DNA from: an uncultured Bacteroidota bacterium
GTDB taxonomy: Bacteria; Bacteroidota; Bacteroidia; Chitinophagales; Chitinophagaceae
Assembly (NCBI GenBank): GCA_903929195.1
Contig: CAIYTT010000231.1
Coordinates: 1-64,000 of the forward strand
Length of the DNA: 64,000 nucleotides
Reading direction: 5' to 3'
A model generated the notes under the pieces. It ran no database searches and was not told the origin of the DNA. It was given only the letters and a program-made list of their open reading frames with translations. The translations under genes were made by a program, and so were the position numbers. This document shows, piece after piece, positions 17,688 to 62,142 of the stretch. The first letter of the stretch is position 1, and each line of letters opens with the position of its first letter.

Positions 17688-18488
17688 TTAAAAATGTTCA
17701 ATAGAGCTTATGTATTCCGACCCTGGAAATTCTTTTGAAAGCACTTCAAACCCTTGCATGTGGCCACCTTTAAAACTGACCACTTTGATTGCTGGTTTTA
17801 TTTTTTTTAAATTTTGTATTTTATTATCTGTTGTTATTTCGTCTTTTTTGCCTGAGAAGATTAGCATAGGCAGTTTTATGTTTTTTAAAACATTTATATA
17901 ATTTGAAACGTTTGATGGTAATAATATTTCAACATTTTTTTTTAGCATAAAATGCTTTTATAGCCGACGGGTTTGTAACATATCCATCACCAATAATAAA
18001 GTCGGGTTGAATGTAATTTGTTGCAAGCGTAGCAATAATCGTTCCCATTGAAAAAGCCCAAACGCCTGTCTTGTTTTTGGGATATTTATTCTTTGCAAAC
18101 TGTATTACTGCGGTAAGATCAGTTGCGAATTCATTATAGTAAAGCATTTTAGTATCAATATTAAATGAATCACTTTCGCCAAACCCTCGGTAATCGAACA
18201 TGACAACAGTAAATCCTACATGGGAGAGAATAGAGTAGCCTGCATTAACCACCAAGACATATTTCCTGCATCAGCATATGCAAGAACAATAGATGTATTA
18301 TTGTCAGCTTCTTTGGTTGGCAGAAATATCCATGATTTAAGTTTTATATTGTCTGAAGTTGTAATGACGTTTTTTTCATACGGCAATTTCATAGTATCAG
18401 GAACGGCCTCGTATTTTTTTGATGGTTTAATCGCGTAAGATTGGCAGTAACATGAAATACCAATAATTAGTAATAAGGGTTTATGCAT
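17688..18488 (-). pseudogene. Secreted alpha/beta hydrolase broken by two frameshifts
   Basis: One gene is spread over three minus-strand frames. The first piece starts at 18488 with a signal peptide (MHKPLLLIIGISCYCQSYA) and runs to the AYADAGNMS oxyanion-region motif before a stop at 18216. The second (from about 18255) holds FDYRGFGES and the nucleophile elbow AFSMG. The third (to 17688) carries the acid in FSGKKDE and the histidine in GGHMQGF. All catalytic-triad residues survive. The first shift lies between 18216 and 18255; the second is at a run of nine A (17935-17943). This may be a recent pseudogene, homopolymer sequencing errors, or slippage at the A9 run. Confidence 0.75.
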
Positions 18489-57437: not shown

Positions 57438-57466
57438 TTAATGCAGTTCGCAAGTAATAAATTCAT

Positions 57467-57501
57467 AAAAGCCGTCATTTCATTGCGAAATGACGGCTTT
57501 T
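57467..57501. terminator. Bidirectional hairpin terminator
   Basis: Perfect 15-bp inverted repeat (57467-57481 and 57487-57501) with a 5-nt loop and T-rich flanks. It serves the T9SS cargo gene and the convergent mod-porin operon. Confidence 0.88.
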
Positions 57502-57524
57502 TTTATTTTTAAATCAGAAGCGGG

Positions 57525-58913
57525 TTATTTACCAAAAATATAATAAAAAGACAATCTCCAAACAGCATCTGTTCCTTTGCCGGATGTTACAAAATTATTT
57601 AAAGCCTCATTTTTAGTATTGTCTGTTAAAGATGAATTATAAGTAAAAATCCAGAAATTAGGCATTATATGTATGTTTTTTAAGGGTGTATAGTCAAAGC
57701 CCAAAACCATAAATTGTGTTTTCGTAGTTGGGTCGTAAGCGGCGGTGGTTGCAGTATAAGCTTTCGTATTTATGTCATTAGCTATATTGTTTAAATTTCC
57801 GCTAGGGTCAAAATTATCATATCTTGCAAAAAAGCTTAATTTAGCTCTGTCTTTGTTATCAGATACGATTCTACCTCTTACAAAGAAGGACATTGCAATA
57901 GCATCTGTTGTTCTGTAATACGTATTTCCATCTTTACCGCTAACTTTTACATCGCCCAACAGGGTTGTTTGAAAACCTTCAAATCCTATTGTTATTTTTT
58001 TAGAATTCCATGCTGCAAATAATTTTGTAGTGTTTCTGTCGTGATACCAAGTACCATTGGGGCCTGCATTATAAACACCCCAATGTAGTTTTTCATAGTC
58101 TTGATAAAGGTCTATAATCAATCTTTTGTCAAAGAATTTAGCATATACATCGGCACTAATCCATTTATAAGGGTCATTTTCCGGTTTTGCTTGTTGCCCA
58201 TTGGCAACCATAACATCGTAACCAAAATTTCCCTTATCATCAAACCAACCTTGTAATTCTGCACCAAAATCGAAACAGGGTGTACCGGCTAAATCAGATA
58301 CCGTCTTTTCAATAGAACGATATGCCCATACCTCTTCCGAGGTTTGGTTATTTCTTCCATTTATTCCATAAGCAGGACCATTCATCTGTCCAAATACCAA
58401 ATCAGTGCCTTTCCATAAATTTTTCCAGCGTAGGTTAGCTAATTTTATATAGGGTACAAATTTATTATTTAAAAGTATATCTCCGTTATTTCCAAAAGCA
58501 AGTGTACCCAGTGTTGTAGTTGTTCCTGTTTGCCCTGCAACGGTTTTTACATTTGTACTTATTGCATTTGCAGGTTGCCCTAATAAGCCGGCAGCATAAT
58601 CGTTTTCTGCTGCCATAACAATATCGGCAGAAAACGATTTACTTATTTCATAACTGTAGCCTAAATAAACTCGTCTCCATTGTAATAGATTCGTATTTGC
58701 AGGCACTGTGCCATATTGGTTATTACCGCGTGCCAAATTATCGGCATTGCCCTTATAAGCAAAATCACCAAATGCACTGCCCCATAATACACCATGAGGC
58801 TTTAATTCTGTTGTTGTGTCGTTTTCAGTTTGTGCATGTAATGCACCGGATAGCGATAAAAGTAAAATACTGCTTATACTTACTTTTTTTGCAACTTTTA
58901 AAAAGTTCAACAT
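57525..58913 (-). CDS. OprO/OprP-like outer-membrane porin of the molybdate locus
   Basis: Protein of 462 residues with a signal peptide ending ALHAQ and a predicted 16-18-strand barrel. Segments such as WRRVYLGYSYEI, GQMNGPAYG...R.IEKTVSD, FDFGAELQGWF, YDVMVANGQQ, and a C-terminal FYYIFGK resemble the phosphate-selective porin O/P family, which passes oxyanions. It lies 52 bp after modE in the same direction and has a ModE-type palindrome in its leader. That makes it a candidate outer-membrane entry path for molybdate, the first step before ModA. The substrate is inferred from context only. Confidence 0.75.
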   Translation of the reverse strand: MLNFLKVAKKVSISSILLLSLSGALHAQTENDTTTELKPHGVLWGSAFGDFAYKGNADNLARGNNQYGTVPANTNLLQWRRVYLGYSYEISKSFSADIVMAAENDYAAGLLGQPANAISTNVKTVAGQTGTTTTLGTLAFGNNGDILLNNKFVPYIKLANLRWKNLWKGTDLVFGQMNGPAYGINGRNNQTSEEVWAYRSIEKTVSDLAGTPCFDFGAELQGWFDDKGNFGYDVMVANGQQAKPENDPYKWISADVYAKFFDKRLIIDLYQDYEKLHWGVYNAGPNGTWYHDRNTTKLFAAWNSKKITIGFEGFQTTLLGDVKVSGKDGNTYYRTTDAIAMSFFVRGRIVSDNKDRAKLSFFARYDNFDPSGNLNNIANDINTKAYTATTAAYDPTTKTQFMVLGFDYTPLKNIHIMPNFWIFTYNSSLTDNTKNEALNNFVTSGKGTDAVWRLSFYYIFGK

Positions 58914-58929
58914 GTTTGTTTTTGTTTTG

Positions 58930-58951
58930 GATATGCTTTATAAAGCATATC
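58930..58951. promoter_or_regulatory. Candidate ModE operator O3 before the porin gene
   Basis: Perfect 22-bp palindrome centred on TTTATAAA, 16 bp before the porin ATG. Its core TATGCTTTATAAAGCATA shares the TATGyTTTwwAAArCAT pattern with the palindromes before modE and modA. Confidence 0.55.
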
Positions 58952-58965
58952 GATAAATAAAAAAA

Positions 58966-59316
58966 TTATAAATTTATTTCTTTTGATAATTTCTCTGTAT
59001 AGTTCTTTATTTTTTCTTCTAACAAATAAAAAATTTCTATTGCTTCTTCACCGGCTTTAGTAAGTTTTGCACCGCCGCCACCTTTGCCACCCAATATTTT
59101 TTCTACAAGTATATTGTTAGATAGTTTGTTCATGTCTTCTACCATTTGCCACGCTTGCCTATATGACATTTGCATTGCTTTTGCCGCTTTTGTTATAGAG
59201 CCGTTTGTTTTTATTTGTTCTAATAGTGTTATTCTACCTCTGCCAAGGTAGTGTCCATTTTCTTCTTTTATCCAGACACGAAAACCAATAGAATATTTTT
59301 TTTGTTCAGAGTCCAA
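58966..59316 (-). CDS. modE: ModE-type transcriptional regulator, DNA-binding domain only
   Basis: Regulator of 116 residues that starts at a TTG. It covers the winged-helix DNA-binding domain of ModE: LGRGRITLLEQI.TNGSITKAAKAMQMSYRQAWQMVEDMN, then the wing GGKGGGGAKLTKAGEEAI, and a C-terminal dimerisation helix. The C-terminal di-Mop molybdate-binding domain of full-length ModE (about 260 residues) is missing, but a separate di-Mop protein is encoded upstream in the same locus. ModE binds molybdate and represses mod genes; here the effector may be sensed by the separate Mop protein or not at all. Palindromes in front of modE and modA fit its operators. Confidence 0.9.
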   Translation of the reverse strand: MDSEQKKYSIGFRVWIKEENGHYLGRGRITLLEQIKTNGSITKAAKAMQMSYRQAWQMVEDMNKLSNNILVEKILGGKGGGGAKLTKAGEEAIEIFYLLEEKIKNYTEKLSKEINL

Positions 59317-59327
59317 ATTAATTTCGG

Positions 59328-59345
59328 TATGTTTTTAAAAACATG
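59328..59345. promoter_or_regulatory. Candidate ModE operator O1 before modE
   Basis: TATGTTTTTAAAAACATG contains a perfect 16-bp palindrome (59329-59344). It lies 11 nt before the modE TTG and 2 nt downstream of the TACTTTTG promoter box, covering the likely transcription start. It is identical to the modA site at 16 of 18 positions. Confidence 0.65.
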
Positions 59346-59347
59346 CA

Positions 59348-59377
59348 CAAAAGTACAATTACTTTTCACAAATGCAA
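59348..59377 (-). promoter_or_regulatory. Promoter of modE
   Basis: On the minus strand, TTG (59377-59375), a 19-nt spacer and TACTTTTG (59355-59348) form a full Bacteroidota promoter, directly in front of the palindrome. This suggests autoregulation of modE and the porin. Confidence 0.6.
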
Positions 59378-59393
59378 TTATGAAGTATCATTA

Positions 59394-60266
59394 TTACACT
59401 TTAAATAGAACCGGATTAAAAGCTTTAGACGAAACAACAATTCTATCACCTTTATGCAGATTTATTATGTCGGCGGCAAAGGCAACAACCTTTACAATAT
59501 TATTATGTATTAATACTGATACGATATAAATAATGTCTTCTTGTTCTATATTCAACACTTCACCAATCATCTGAAATTTACCACTAAGATATTGATTTGT
59601 AAATAGGGTAGCTGGGCTACCTTGCCTCGTAATTTTCCCATTTTCTAAAATAATCATGTTTTCAGACAATTTATAAATTTCCGAAATGTCATGACTAACT
59701 AATAGTATTGTTAATTGATAGTTTTTGTGTATTTGTAATATGTAATCCTGAATTTTAGACCTCATTTCTTTGTCTAAAGCAGACAGCGGCTCATCTAACA
59801 ACAATATTTTGGGCTTTCTTACTAAAGCCCTTGCTAACGCAATACGTTGTTGTTGACCACCCGAAAGTGTAACCGGATAACGATTTTGTAATTCTGTAAG
59901 CTCCATTATTTCTATTAGCTCCTTAATAATAGTGTTACTTTGGTTTTTATTTAATGCATATTCTAAATTTTCTTTTACTGTCATATTAGGAAACAGTGCA
60001 TAATCTTGAAATACGATGCCTACATTTCTATTTTGCGGTGTTACATTTATTTTGTTATCAGTATCAAACCAAATGGTGTTATCAACTACAATTTTCCCGT
60101 ATTCGGGATTTAACAGCCCTGCCAATATGCGTAATATGGTTGTTTTACCGGCTCCTGATGCCCCGTAAATAGTAGTTATTGTACCTGAATGAATTGATAA
60201 ATCAATATCTAATTTTAGGCTACCTTGTGCAGTAAAAAGATTCTTTTTTATATTTATATAAATCAT
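59394..60266 (-). CDS. modC: Molybdate ABC transporter ATP-binding protein
   Basis: ATPase of 290 residues on the cytosolic face of the molybdate importer. It has Walker A GASGAGKT (near 35-42), a Q-loop, the signature LSGGQQQR, Walker B ILLLDEPLSALD and the switch VSHD. A short C-terminal TOBE-like domain (about 225-290: IGEVLNIEQED...GDRIVVSSKAFNPV) ends the protein, which is smaller than the 350-residue E. coli ModC. Its ATG overlaps the modB stop by 4 nt. A 77-bp gap with a promoter and palindrome separates it from modE. Confidence 0.93.
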   Translation of the reverse strand: MIYINIKKNLFTAQGSLKLDIDLSIHSGTITTIYGASGAGKTTILRILAGLLNPEYGKIVVDNTIWFDTDNKINVTPQNRNVGIVFQDYALFPNMTVKENLEYALNKNQSNTIIKELIEIMELTELQNRYPVTLSGGQQQRIALARALVRKPKILLLDEPLSALDKEMRSKIQDYILQIHKNYQLTILLVSHDISEIYKLSENMIILENGKITRQGSPATLFTNQYLSGKFQMIGEVLNIEQEDIIYIVSVLIHNNIVKVVAFAADIINLHKGDRIVVSSKAFNPVLFKV

Positions 60267-60937
60267 AAATAGCGTGTAATGGTATAGCGTTGATTTACAA
60301 AATAAACAACAATAAGAATACTGAATGTTATAGCAAATAATATAAGTGCATAAATGTTTGCATTGGTATAATTTAAGGTCTGTACTTCGTCATATATGGC
60401 AATAGAAACAACTTTAGTTTCCCCGGGAATACTGCCGCCAATCATTAGTACTACACCAAACTCGCCAATGGTATGAGCAAAAGTAAGCACTAAACCTGTA
60501 ATTACAGAAGGTTTAATATTGGGTAGTACTACTTTAAATAAAGTGTATAACTTGCTCTTACCCAATGTAAATGAAGCTTCTTTTATATTAGCAGGCAAAG
60601 AAGATAAGCCAGACTGTATGGGATGAACCATAAAAGGCAGACTATAAATAACGGAGGCAACAACAAGCCCGGGAAATGAAAAAACGAGCCGTACATTAAA
60701 ATAATGCTCAATAAACTTACCTAAACCATGTGTGGGACCAAATGCAAGCAGAAAATAGAATCCTAAAACAGAGGGTGGTAGCACTAAAGGCAAGCTTATG
60801 GCAGCTTCTATTAGTGCTTTAAATTTACTTTTACTGTTAACAATACCATTTGCAATAGGTATAGCAATAATAAACAATATAAAAGTTGTTATTATTGCCA
60901 GCTTAAAAGTTATCCAAAACGGCATTAAATCAATCAT
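60263..60937 (-). CDS. modB: Molybdate ABC transporter permease
   Basis: Inner-membrane permease of 224 residues with about five or six membrane helices, the usual ModB length. The EAA loop that contacts ModC is ...EASFTLGKSKLYTLFKVVLPNIKPSVITG near residues 125-152. The N-terminal LVLPPSVLGFYFLLAFG matches the ModB/CysTW family. It forms the channel through which ModA-delivered molybdate enters the cell. Start and stop overlap both neighbours (8 nt with the di-Mop gene, 4 nt with modC). Confidence 0.93.
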   Translation of the reverse strand: MIDLMPFWITFKLAIITTFILFIIAIPIANGIVNSKSKFKALIEAAISLPLVLPPSVLGFYFLLAFGPTHGLGKFIEHYFNVRLVFSFPGLVVASVIYSLPFMVHPIQSGLSSLPANIKEASFTLGKSKLYTLFKVVLPNIKPSVITGLVLTFAHTIGEFGVVLMIGGSIPGETKVVSIAIYDEVQTLNYTNANIYALILFAITFSILIVVYFVNQRYTITRYL

Positions 60938-61334
60938 AAGGAGACAAATTTACCTCATTTGTTTTTATCATTGCAATTACTTCATCACCTACTACTAAAT
61001 GAAGTTGTAGAAGTGCTTGAGTAGTTATAAGTGAACTTACTGCATAATCAAAAAAACACATGTTTATTTTAGATAGTATTTTACCTTTTTCTATAGATTG
61101 TATTATACAATTTAACCTATTTTGAATACTGATAGAACCGGTAAATTCTTTGGCTATTACTACCTCTGTTTCTTTAAACAATATCTGCACATTATTGCCA
61201 ATTGTAAGGTAGCAAGCTGTTTCAGGGGTATCTATTATTATAGCACAGATTAGAACATCGTTTATGGCAGCTTTTACAAGAGATAATTGACCTTCTGTGT
61301 GTATTTCAAAAATTTTTGCGTTTAGTTTATTCAT
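60930..61334 (-). CDS. Di-Mop (double TOBE) molybdate-binding protein
   Basis: Cytosolic protein of 134 residues consisting of two Mop/TOBE repeats: NKLNAKIFEIHTEGQLSLVKA... to KETEVVIAK (about 2-62) and NRLNCIIQSIEKGKILSKI... to KTNEVNLSPYD (about 70-134). Each ends in the K.TEV.(L/I) strand typical of molybdate-binding Mop units. The second repeat is more divergent. Stand-alone di-Mop proteins (molbindins) store or buffer molybdate, and the same module forms the sensor half of ModE. Because ModE here lacks that half, this protein may act as storage protein, sensor partner, or both. It overlaps modA and modB by 8 nt each. Confidence 0.85.
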   Translation of the reverse strand: MNKLNAKIFEIHTEGQLSLVKAAINDVLICAIIIDTPETACYLTIGNNVQILFKETEVVIAKEFTGSISIQNRLNCIIQSIEKGKILSKINMCFFDYAVSSLITTQALLQLHLVVGDEVIAMIKTNEVNLSPYD

Positions 61335-62109
61335 TTACGATATAGCCCGATTGTTTTAGAATTGTTTTTATTTTAGATGAATATAAAAAGTCATAAAATT
61401 GTTTGGATTTTTCGTAATGAGTATCTTTTCCATGTTTTAGAATTACCGCTCCCTGTTTTATGGGTTTATAAGTTGTAGAGTCTATTGCTAACCAATGCCC
61501 CTTATCTTTTATTTGAGGAGCTAAAACGAATGATTTTGCAATAAATCCAATTTCAGCAGCCTGAGATTCAATAAATTGTTGTGTTTGGGCTATACTTTCT
61601 CCCAACACAAGTTTGTTTTTTACAGCATCATATATATTATAATGTTTAAGAACCTCTTCGGCAGCCATACCGTAAGGTGCTGTGTTAGGGTTAGCAATTG
61701 CTATTTTTTTTATTTCGGGCGATTTTAGGAGTTGCAGCATATTATTTGTATTAAGGTCTGTTTTAGCAGTCCATAATACTAAAACACCATTAGCATAACA
61801 TTTAGGCTCATTAATAGCATATCCTTTTTTATATAATTCTTCGGGATAGTTCATATCAGCAGATACAAAAACATCAAAAGGAGCGCCTTCTTCTATTTGT
61901 GCAGTTAGCTTGCCGGAAGCACCTGAAATAATCGCAATAGAAATTCCGGTTTCTTTTTCAAATATGGTTTTTAATTGTTCTATTGTATAACGCATATTTG
62001 CAGCCACAGCCACCGTAATCATTTTTTGTGCGTAACCGGCAGGGCTTGCAAACAATAAAAAGAACCAAATAAGTAATTTACAAAAATATTTTTTCATTAA
62101 GTATTGCAT
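61327..62109 (-). CDS. modA: Molybdate-binding periplasmic protein
   Basis: Substrate-binding protein of 260 residues (an ATG four codons later, at 62097, may be the true start) with a signal peptide ending AGYAQ. ModA signatures are VAVAANMRYTIEQL, ISGASGKLTAQIEEGAPFDVFVSAD, and ...ANPNTAPYGMAAEEVL; the Ser and Thr/Ala residues of these loops bind the oxyanion. Length is standard. It delivers molybdate (or tungstate) to ModBC. It heads the operon modA, di-Mop, modB, modC with overlapping genes. A TACATTTG promoter box and a ModE-type palindrome lie just upstream. Confidence 0.94.
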   Translation of the reverse strand: MQYLMKKYFCKLLIWFFLLFASPAGYAQKMITVAVAANMRYTIEQLKTIFEKETGISIAIISGASGKLTAQIEEGAPFDVFVSADMNYPEELYKKGYAINEPKCYANGVLVLWTAKTDLNTNNMLQLLKSPEIKKIAIANPNTAPYGMAAEEVLKHYNIYDAVKNKLVLGESIAQTQQFIESQAAEIGFIAKSFVLAPQIKDKGHWLAIDSTTYKPIKQGAVILKHGKDTHYEKSKQFYDFLYSSKIKTILKQSGYIVNE

Positions 62110-62114
62110 TTCGT

Positions 62115-62132
62115 TGTGTTTATAAAAACATG
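62115..62132. promoter_or_regulatory. Candidate ModE operator O2 before modA
   Basis: TGTGTTTATAAAAACATG, identical to the modE site at 16 of 18 positions. It lies 5 nt before the modA ATG at 62109 and 2 nt downstream of the TACATTTG promoter box, the same geometry as at modE. Confidence 0.65.
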
Positions 62133-62134
62133 TC

Positions 62135-62142
62135 CAAATGTA
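62135..62142 (-). promoter_or_regulatory. Promoter -7 element of the modA operon
   Basis: TACATTTG on the minus strand, immediately in front of the palindrome at 62115-62132. A clear -33 TTG is not seen. Confidence 0.5.

Follow-up and report, generated by a model that had tools for sequence, protein, structure and literature searches.

A predicted outer-membrane porin, probably redirected from phosphate to molybdate, in the mod operon of an uncultured Bacteroidota bacterium

The minus-strand gene at 57525–58913 of the DNA studied here appears to specify an outer-membrane channel derived from the porins of pst loci, an old duplicate that was recruited to molybdenum (Mo) and stands at the end of the mod operon in this genus; we assign this reading a probability of about 0.6. 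It builds on the operon itself, the candidate operators and their geometry, the clade to which the protein belongs and its family context, all of them read from sequence, in the window (the whole 64,000-nucleotide stretch that was analysed) and in related genomes. The duplicate has probably been redirected to molybdate or tungstate, a specificity that we infer. General porins are usually credited with the passage of molybdate through the outer membrane, and a Mo-regulated, phosphate-derived porin would provide a defined and testable gene. If the reading is true, this is a case of an oxyanion channel changing its substrate, and the same genomes hold both the phosphate and the putative molybdate version.

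The mod operon

The ORF list of the window gives the minus-strand order modA, a Mop/TOBE gene, modB, modC, modE and then the porin-like gene. Identities were assigned by NCBIfam and Pfam searches, in which modA and modB exceed the curated cut-offs and modE and modC do not. Among these genes are modA (61327–62109), which codes for a molybdate-binding protein (TIGR01256, 201 bits against a cut-off of 62.5), and modB (60263–60937), which codes for the permease (TIGR02141, 226 bits against 182.6). The 116 amino acid product of modE (58966–59316; TIGR00637 and HTH_1) consists of the DNA-binding domain alone, with no Mop domain, and its match to TIGR00637 (E-value=1.5e-26, 92.4 bits) lies slightly under the cut-off of 98.5. 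A stand-alone Mop (TOBE) protein of 134 amino acids, probably a di-Mop, is specified by 60930–61334 on the same strand (TOBE in Pfam; TIGR00638), and resembles the C-terminal half of ModE, with a PRK10676 match over ModE positions 158–257. ModE is therefore split in the window, the DNA-binding half (58966–59316) and the Mop half (60930–61334) being separate genes of one operon. The ATPase specified by modC (59394–60266) likewise lacks a C-terminal Mop/TOBE domain, and matches TIGR02142 over positions 6–226 of 353, below the cut-off. An identical order, modA-mop-modB-modC-modE, is seen in a class-level relative (L111).

The porin-like gene is separated from modE by 52 bp on the same strand, just as had been proposed from the letters of the DNA, and the ORF coordinates (57525–58913 and 58966–59316, both minus) bear this out. 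Beyond its 3' end, a terminator-like hairpin (57459–57509; arms 87% complementary, followed by a T run) lies between it and a convergent gene.

The porin-like protein

The product of 57525–58913 is a 462 amino acid protein with an N-terminal signal-peptide-like stretch, and is predicted to be a porin-like outer-membrane protein from its ORF, family and position in the tree. Neither Pfam and NCBIfam nor the PDB sequences gave a meaningful match, and no model in Pfam or NCBIfam is dedicated to its family. PF07396 (Porin_O_P) did not match even at an E-value of 10, the gathering score not being reached, and at an E-value of 1 it matched none of 16 aligned relatives. Distant homologues collected with a family profile do reach the Porin_O_P cut-off (L146, E-value=2.6e-9; L161, 2e-5; L159, 2.2e-4), and profile-profile comparison returned Porin_O_P with a probability of 86.6% over the N-terminal part of the protein. 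Judged by these comparisons the family is a remote relative of Porin_O_P, its commonest setting being phosphate uptake. The OprO/OprP-like label of the original prediction holds only at this distance, through the divergent homologues and the profile-profile comparison, and not through a direct Pfam, NCBIfam or PDB match.

An AlphaFold model built from a four-row alignment (pLDDT 37) contains about 16 strands and a single long helix at the N-terminus. This low-confidence model is compatible with an exported barrel and is too poor for placing any residue in a pore. The plug and barrel domains of TonB-dependent receptors found no Pfam match in the protein, and the viral contigs scanned contained no relatives of it.

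Two paralogues occur elsewhere in the genome of the window. One (L031) directly precedes pstSCAB-phoU; the other (L034, positions 898–2193, G000:C70), the third porin of this genome, has no transport genes beside it, neither pst nor mod.

Family context

A 16-row profile was used to count the family in 299 genomes of the same bacterial family, and 70 homologues were recovered from 55 of them. Forty-seven of the 70 lie on the same strand as pstC and about 1.0–2.3 kb before it, in pstSCAB loci; three adjoin modB, all in the genus of the window; and 20 adjoin neither pstC nor modB. Even among these 20, L064 and L075 touch pstS, and L068, L075 and L076 are found by Pit/DUF47-like phosphate genes (the Pit names were given by eye). 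Neighbourhoods near contig ends, for example in G258, are incomplete. The family is thus chiefly pst-linked and presumably serves phosphate. The window porin lies in a mod operon and not directly upstream of pstSCAB, a placement which suggests that a channel for phosphate was turned to the admission of molybdate. One member without pst linkage (L072, 4852–6631) has a regulator of the Rrf2 type and a small TSUP-like gene as neighbours, and possibly represents a branch with another substrate.

In a sample of 346 genomes from the phylum, 67 have the porin family and at least 135 have modB matches; among the matches listed, the sole linked porin-modB pair is that of the window itself (two tables compared by reading). 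Of 20 distant homologues whose loci were read in this sample, about half have pst genes beside them. The searches indicate a porin family that extends over the phylum, is often linked to pst, and is missed by Pfam and NCBIfam in most of its members near the window porin.

Linkage to mod was found in only three species, all of one genus, and two of the three porins are 93% alike. No linked porin of this family was found in 26 of the 29 genomes of the bacterial family with modB, which argues against a general requirement of the mod system for one. Fourteen genomes have both modB and the porin family, and in 11 these are unlinked; some mod contigs end near modB. A further genome of the window genus (G001) has modABC with no porin, modE or Mop beside it. 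In the family as a whole, homologues are found mainly away from mod genes, the outcome that was named with the original prediction as counting against it.

A clade associated with molybdenum genes

Two trees were computed, one of 54 rows and a second of 22 rows that omitted the long outgroup. In both, the three mod-operon copies (those of the window, G002 and G003) form one clade with L062, L060 and L061 (support 100/99), and in the 54-row tree this Mo clade is nested inside the pst-linked copies. Besides the mod-operon copies it takes in those of G294 (L062), G089 and G172. Descent of the window porin by recent duplication of its own genome's pst porin was rejected (AU p=0.001); a clade of the three mod copies by themselves was not (AU p=0.085).

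In G294, a member of another genus (g122), L062 is flanked, in opposite orientation, by a TauE/SafE permease gene and by moaD-moaE, with mobA, moaC, moeA and moaA beyond; the identities of the Moco genes moaA, moeA, moaC, mobA, moaE and moaD were confirmed by Pfam. The porin was probably inserted into this cluster, since in G089 TauE, moaD and moaE are contiguous with no porin between them. Because one clade includes a copy from the Moco gene cluster of another genus, a Mo role of the porin gains independent support. No mod or Moco neighbours were seen outside the clade among the porin loci read; such neighbours accompany four of the six clade rows and none of the 47 others (Fisher p=5e-5, the rows not being independent). 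The clade copies of G089 and G172 have no Mo neighbours. The moaA gene is present wherever a near-complete genome holds a member of the clade, and none was found in G172, which is 69% complete. A separate pst-linked porin is kept by each of the six genomes in which the clade occurs.

Certain positions that are invariant in the nearby pst-linked copies are altered across the clade, among them tyrosine 46 (replaced by S, A, C or M) and serine 213 (by C or V); a few such substitutions, specific to the clade and placed where the residue is otherwise invariant, set the putative molybdate porins apart from the phosphate ones. A further change, R210G, was considered as a selectivity switch and is weakened as such: distant homologues, pst-linked ones included, have the identical RG, so that a change of substrate need not be read from it.

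The TauE/SafE permeases inside the Moco clusters of G294 (L062, 4308–5066) and G089 (L134, 15030–15788) are 75% identical, and constitute candidate molybdate permeases; no ModA-type protein and no modB were found in either genome. A bolder reading, which we put forward tentatively, takes the Mo clade for a true molybdate/tungstate-selective subfamily descended from a duplicated phosphate porin, with TauE/SafE as its inner-membrane partner in G294 and G089, where ModABC is missing. Were the clade selective, its members would be dedicated diffusion channels for molybdate.

The chief competitor, which we consider rather unlikely, supposes that the porin still conducts phosphate or anions generally, and that a chance translocation into the mod operon gave it a Mo-responsive promoter while its substrate stayed the same. 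The pst linkage of most homologues, the core residues common to the window porin and the pst-linked copies, and the clade members of G089 and G172 away from Mo genes would all agree with this. It is harder to reconcile with the separate pst-linked porin kept by the same genomes, with two types of Mo locus (mod operon and Moco cluster) sharing a clade outside which the loci read have no such neighbours, and with the operator conserved directly before the porin in two species. Less probable still is a channel for divalent oxyanions at large (molybdate, tungstate, sulfate and others), in which Mo regulation would reflect need and the channel itself would not be specific. In substrate-specific porins of the OprP type, solutes pass by diffusion and affinity is the only basis of discrimination, and the Rrf2 and TSUP-like neighbours of L072 hint at other anions in other branches; against this, no sulfur-assimilation genes were recognised near Mo-clade members in the loci read.

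Candidate ModE operators

A perfect 22-bp palindrome, GATATGCTTTATAAAGCATATC, occupies 58930–58951 in the leader of the porin gene (core ATGCTTTATAAAGCAT, 58933–58948) and is identical in G002; in 100 shuffles of the window the mean number of palindrome matches with three or fewer mismatches was 0.00. Across the 4.19-Mb genome the pattern ATGYTTWWWWAARCAY was located at six distinct sites, and three of these precede the porin gene, modE (ATGTTTTTAAAAACAT, 59329–59344) and modA (ATGTTTTTATAAACAC, 62116–62131, minus strand). The same three sites exist in G002. We regard the palindrome as a candidate ModE operator because near-identical sites precede modE and modA and only six such sites exist genome-wide. 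By eye it does not match the ModE consensus of E. coli.

Bacteroidota promoters usually have TAnnTTTG as their -7 element. Such boxes are found on the minus strand before modE (TACTTTTG, 59348–59355) and modA (TACATTTG, 62135–62142), and in both genes, in the window species and G002 alike, the operator begins exactly 3 nt past the box, a position like that of a repressor site. The porin's own -7 box is weak by eye.

As for the remaining sites, that at window position 17878 falls inside a broken hydrolase-like ORF and likely arose by chance; the gene concerned (alpha/beta-hydrolase-like, 17688–18255) looks broken across two frames. Around the sites on contigs C235 and C237, no Mo gene was recognised in the surroundings read, and at the porins of G294, G089 and G172 neither a ModE-type site nor modE was found. 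G002 has an additional operator-like site, ATGCTTTATAAAACAT (L103, 4825–4840; G002:C17:43824), with a cytochrome-c-like gene about 170 bp downstream of it and a molybdopterin-oxidoreductase-like (ActB-like) gene after that, both identified by eye.

The third species, G003, keeps the order modA-mop-modB-modC-porin, and its modE is a truncated remnant with an internal TAA stop between modC and the porin gene (L030, 7267–7410). The pattern ATGYTTWWWWAARCAY is absent from the whole G003 genome, and the joint loss of regulator and sites ties the sites to ModE. That G003 retains the porin with neither ModE nor operators counts against our preferred explanation.

It is very improbable that the palindrome acts only within the modE-porin transcript, for instance as an attenuator or other RNA hairpin, and not as a ModE operator. 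Its perfect inverted symmetry, in a leader presumably transcribed together with modE, would fit such a role, but the same core stands before modA and modE at promoter-overlapping positions, and the palindrome is kept in G002 while the pattern is absent in G003, where modE is broken.

The presence of a palindrome in the porin leader, as originally predicted, was therefore upheld, and co-regulation with mod is well supported by the operators at the porin gene, modE and modA, kept in G002 and lost with modE in G003. The larger claim of a dedicated Mo porin stands in part, favoured by the shared operators and the Mo clade and disfavoured by the pst linkage of the family as a whole.

Proposed function

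On the reading that an old phosphate-porin duplicate was recruited to Mo, ModE would bind the ATGYTT-N4-AARCAY sites at modA, modE and the porin gene when molybdate is plentiful, and repress them; this direction of regulation we infer from the placement of the sites. As the ModE of the window has no Mop domain, it would have to receive the molybdate signal from the Mop protein of the neighbouring gene set, which is encoded separately, and sensing probably proceeds through that protein. With molybdate scarce, the sites would be freed and the porin made together with ModABC. Molybdate, and tungstate, would then cross the outer membrane through the porin by facilitated diffusion to reach periplasmic ModA.

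Comparison with known systems

The molybdate ABC transporter and ModE-type regulator of the window have their counterparts in the ModE-modABC system of E. coli, from which the window differs in that its ModE lacks the Mop half (here a separate gene), its operator sequence is different, and an outer-membrane gene is included. OprP and OprO of Pseudomonas aeruginosa (PF07396) are outer-membrane oxyanion porins of a phosphate context, and distant members of the present family reach the Porin_O_P cut-off. The window porin, in contrast, has no direct Pfam or PDB match, lies in a mod operon and not in a phosphate regulon, and has a substrate that is deduced. The pst-linked porins of the Bacteroidota, which make up the majority of its family, are mostly about 40–60% identical within the bacterial family and show the gene order porin, pstS, pstC, pstA, pstB, phoU; no name for them was found. 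Compared with these, the window copy is a member of a distinct clade, lies within a modABC operon and has a ModE-type operator.

Among outer-membrane partners, P. aeruginosa secretes a ModA through its type VI secretion system which works with IcmP in molybdate acquisition (PMC8602904); IcmP offers a parallel as a named outer-membrane partner and differs in not being a porin and in the type VI secretion of its ModA. In Azotobacter, a TonB receptor "potentially for molybdate" lies beside mod genes (PMC4465626). As in the window, a dedicated outer-membrane gene there adjoins a Mo transport cluster, but it serves TonB-dependent active uptake and is not a porin. TonB-dependent receptor genes of other genera were also seen directly beside modE (L052, 11619–13640) and directly beside modA (L046, 10060–12489). 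No molybdate porin came to light in the open-access papers covered, most subscription papers lying outside this coverage. Dedicated outer-membrane genes beside mod are thus already known in the form of TonB receptors; a porin in that place would be new.
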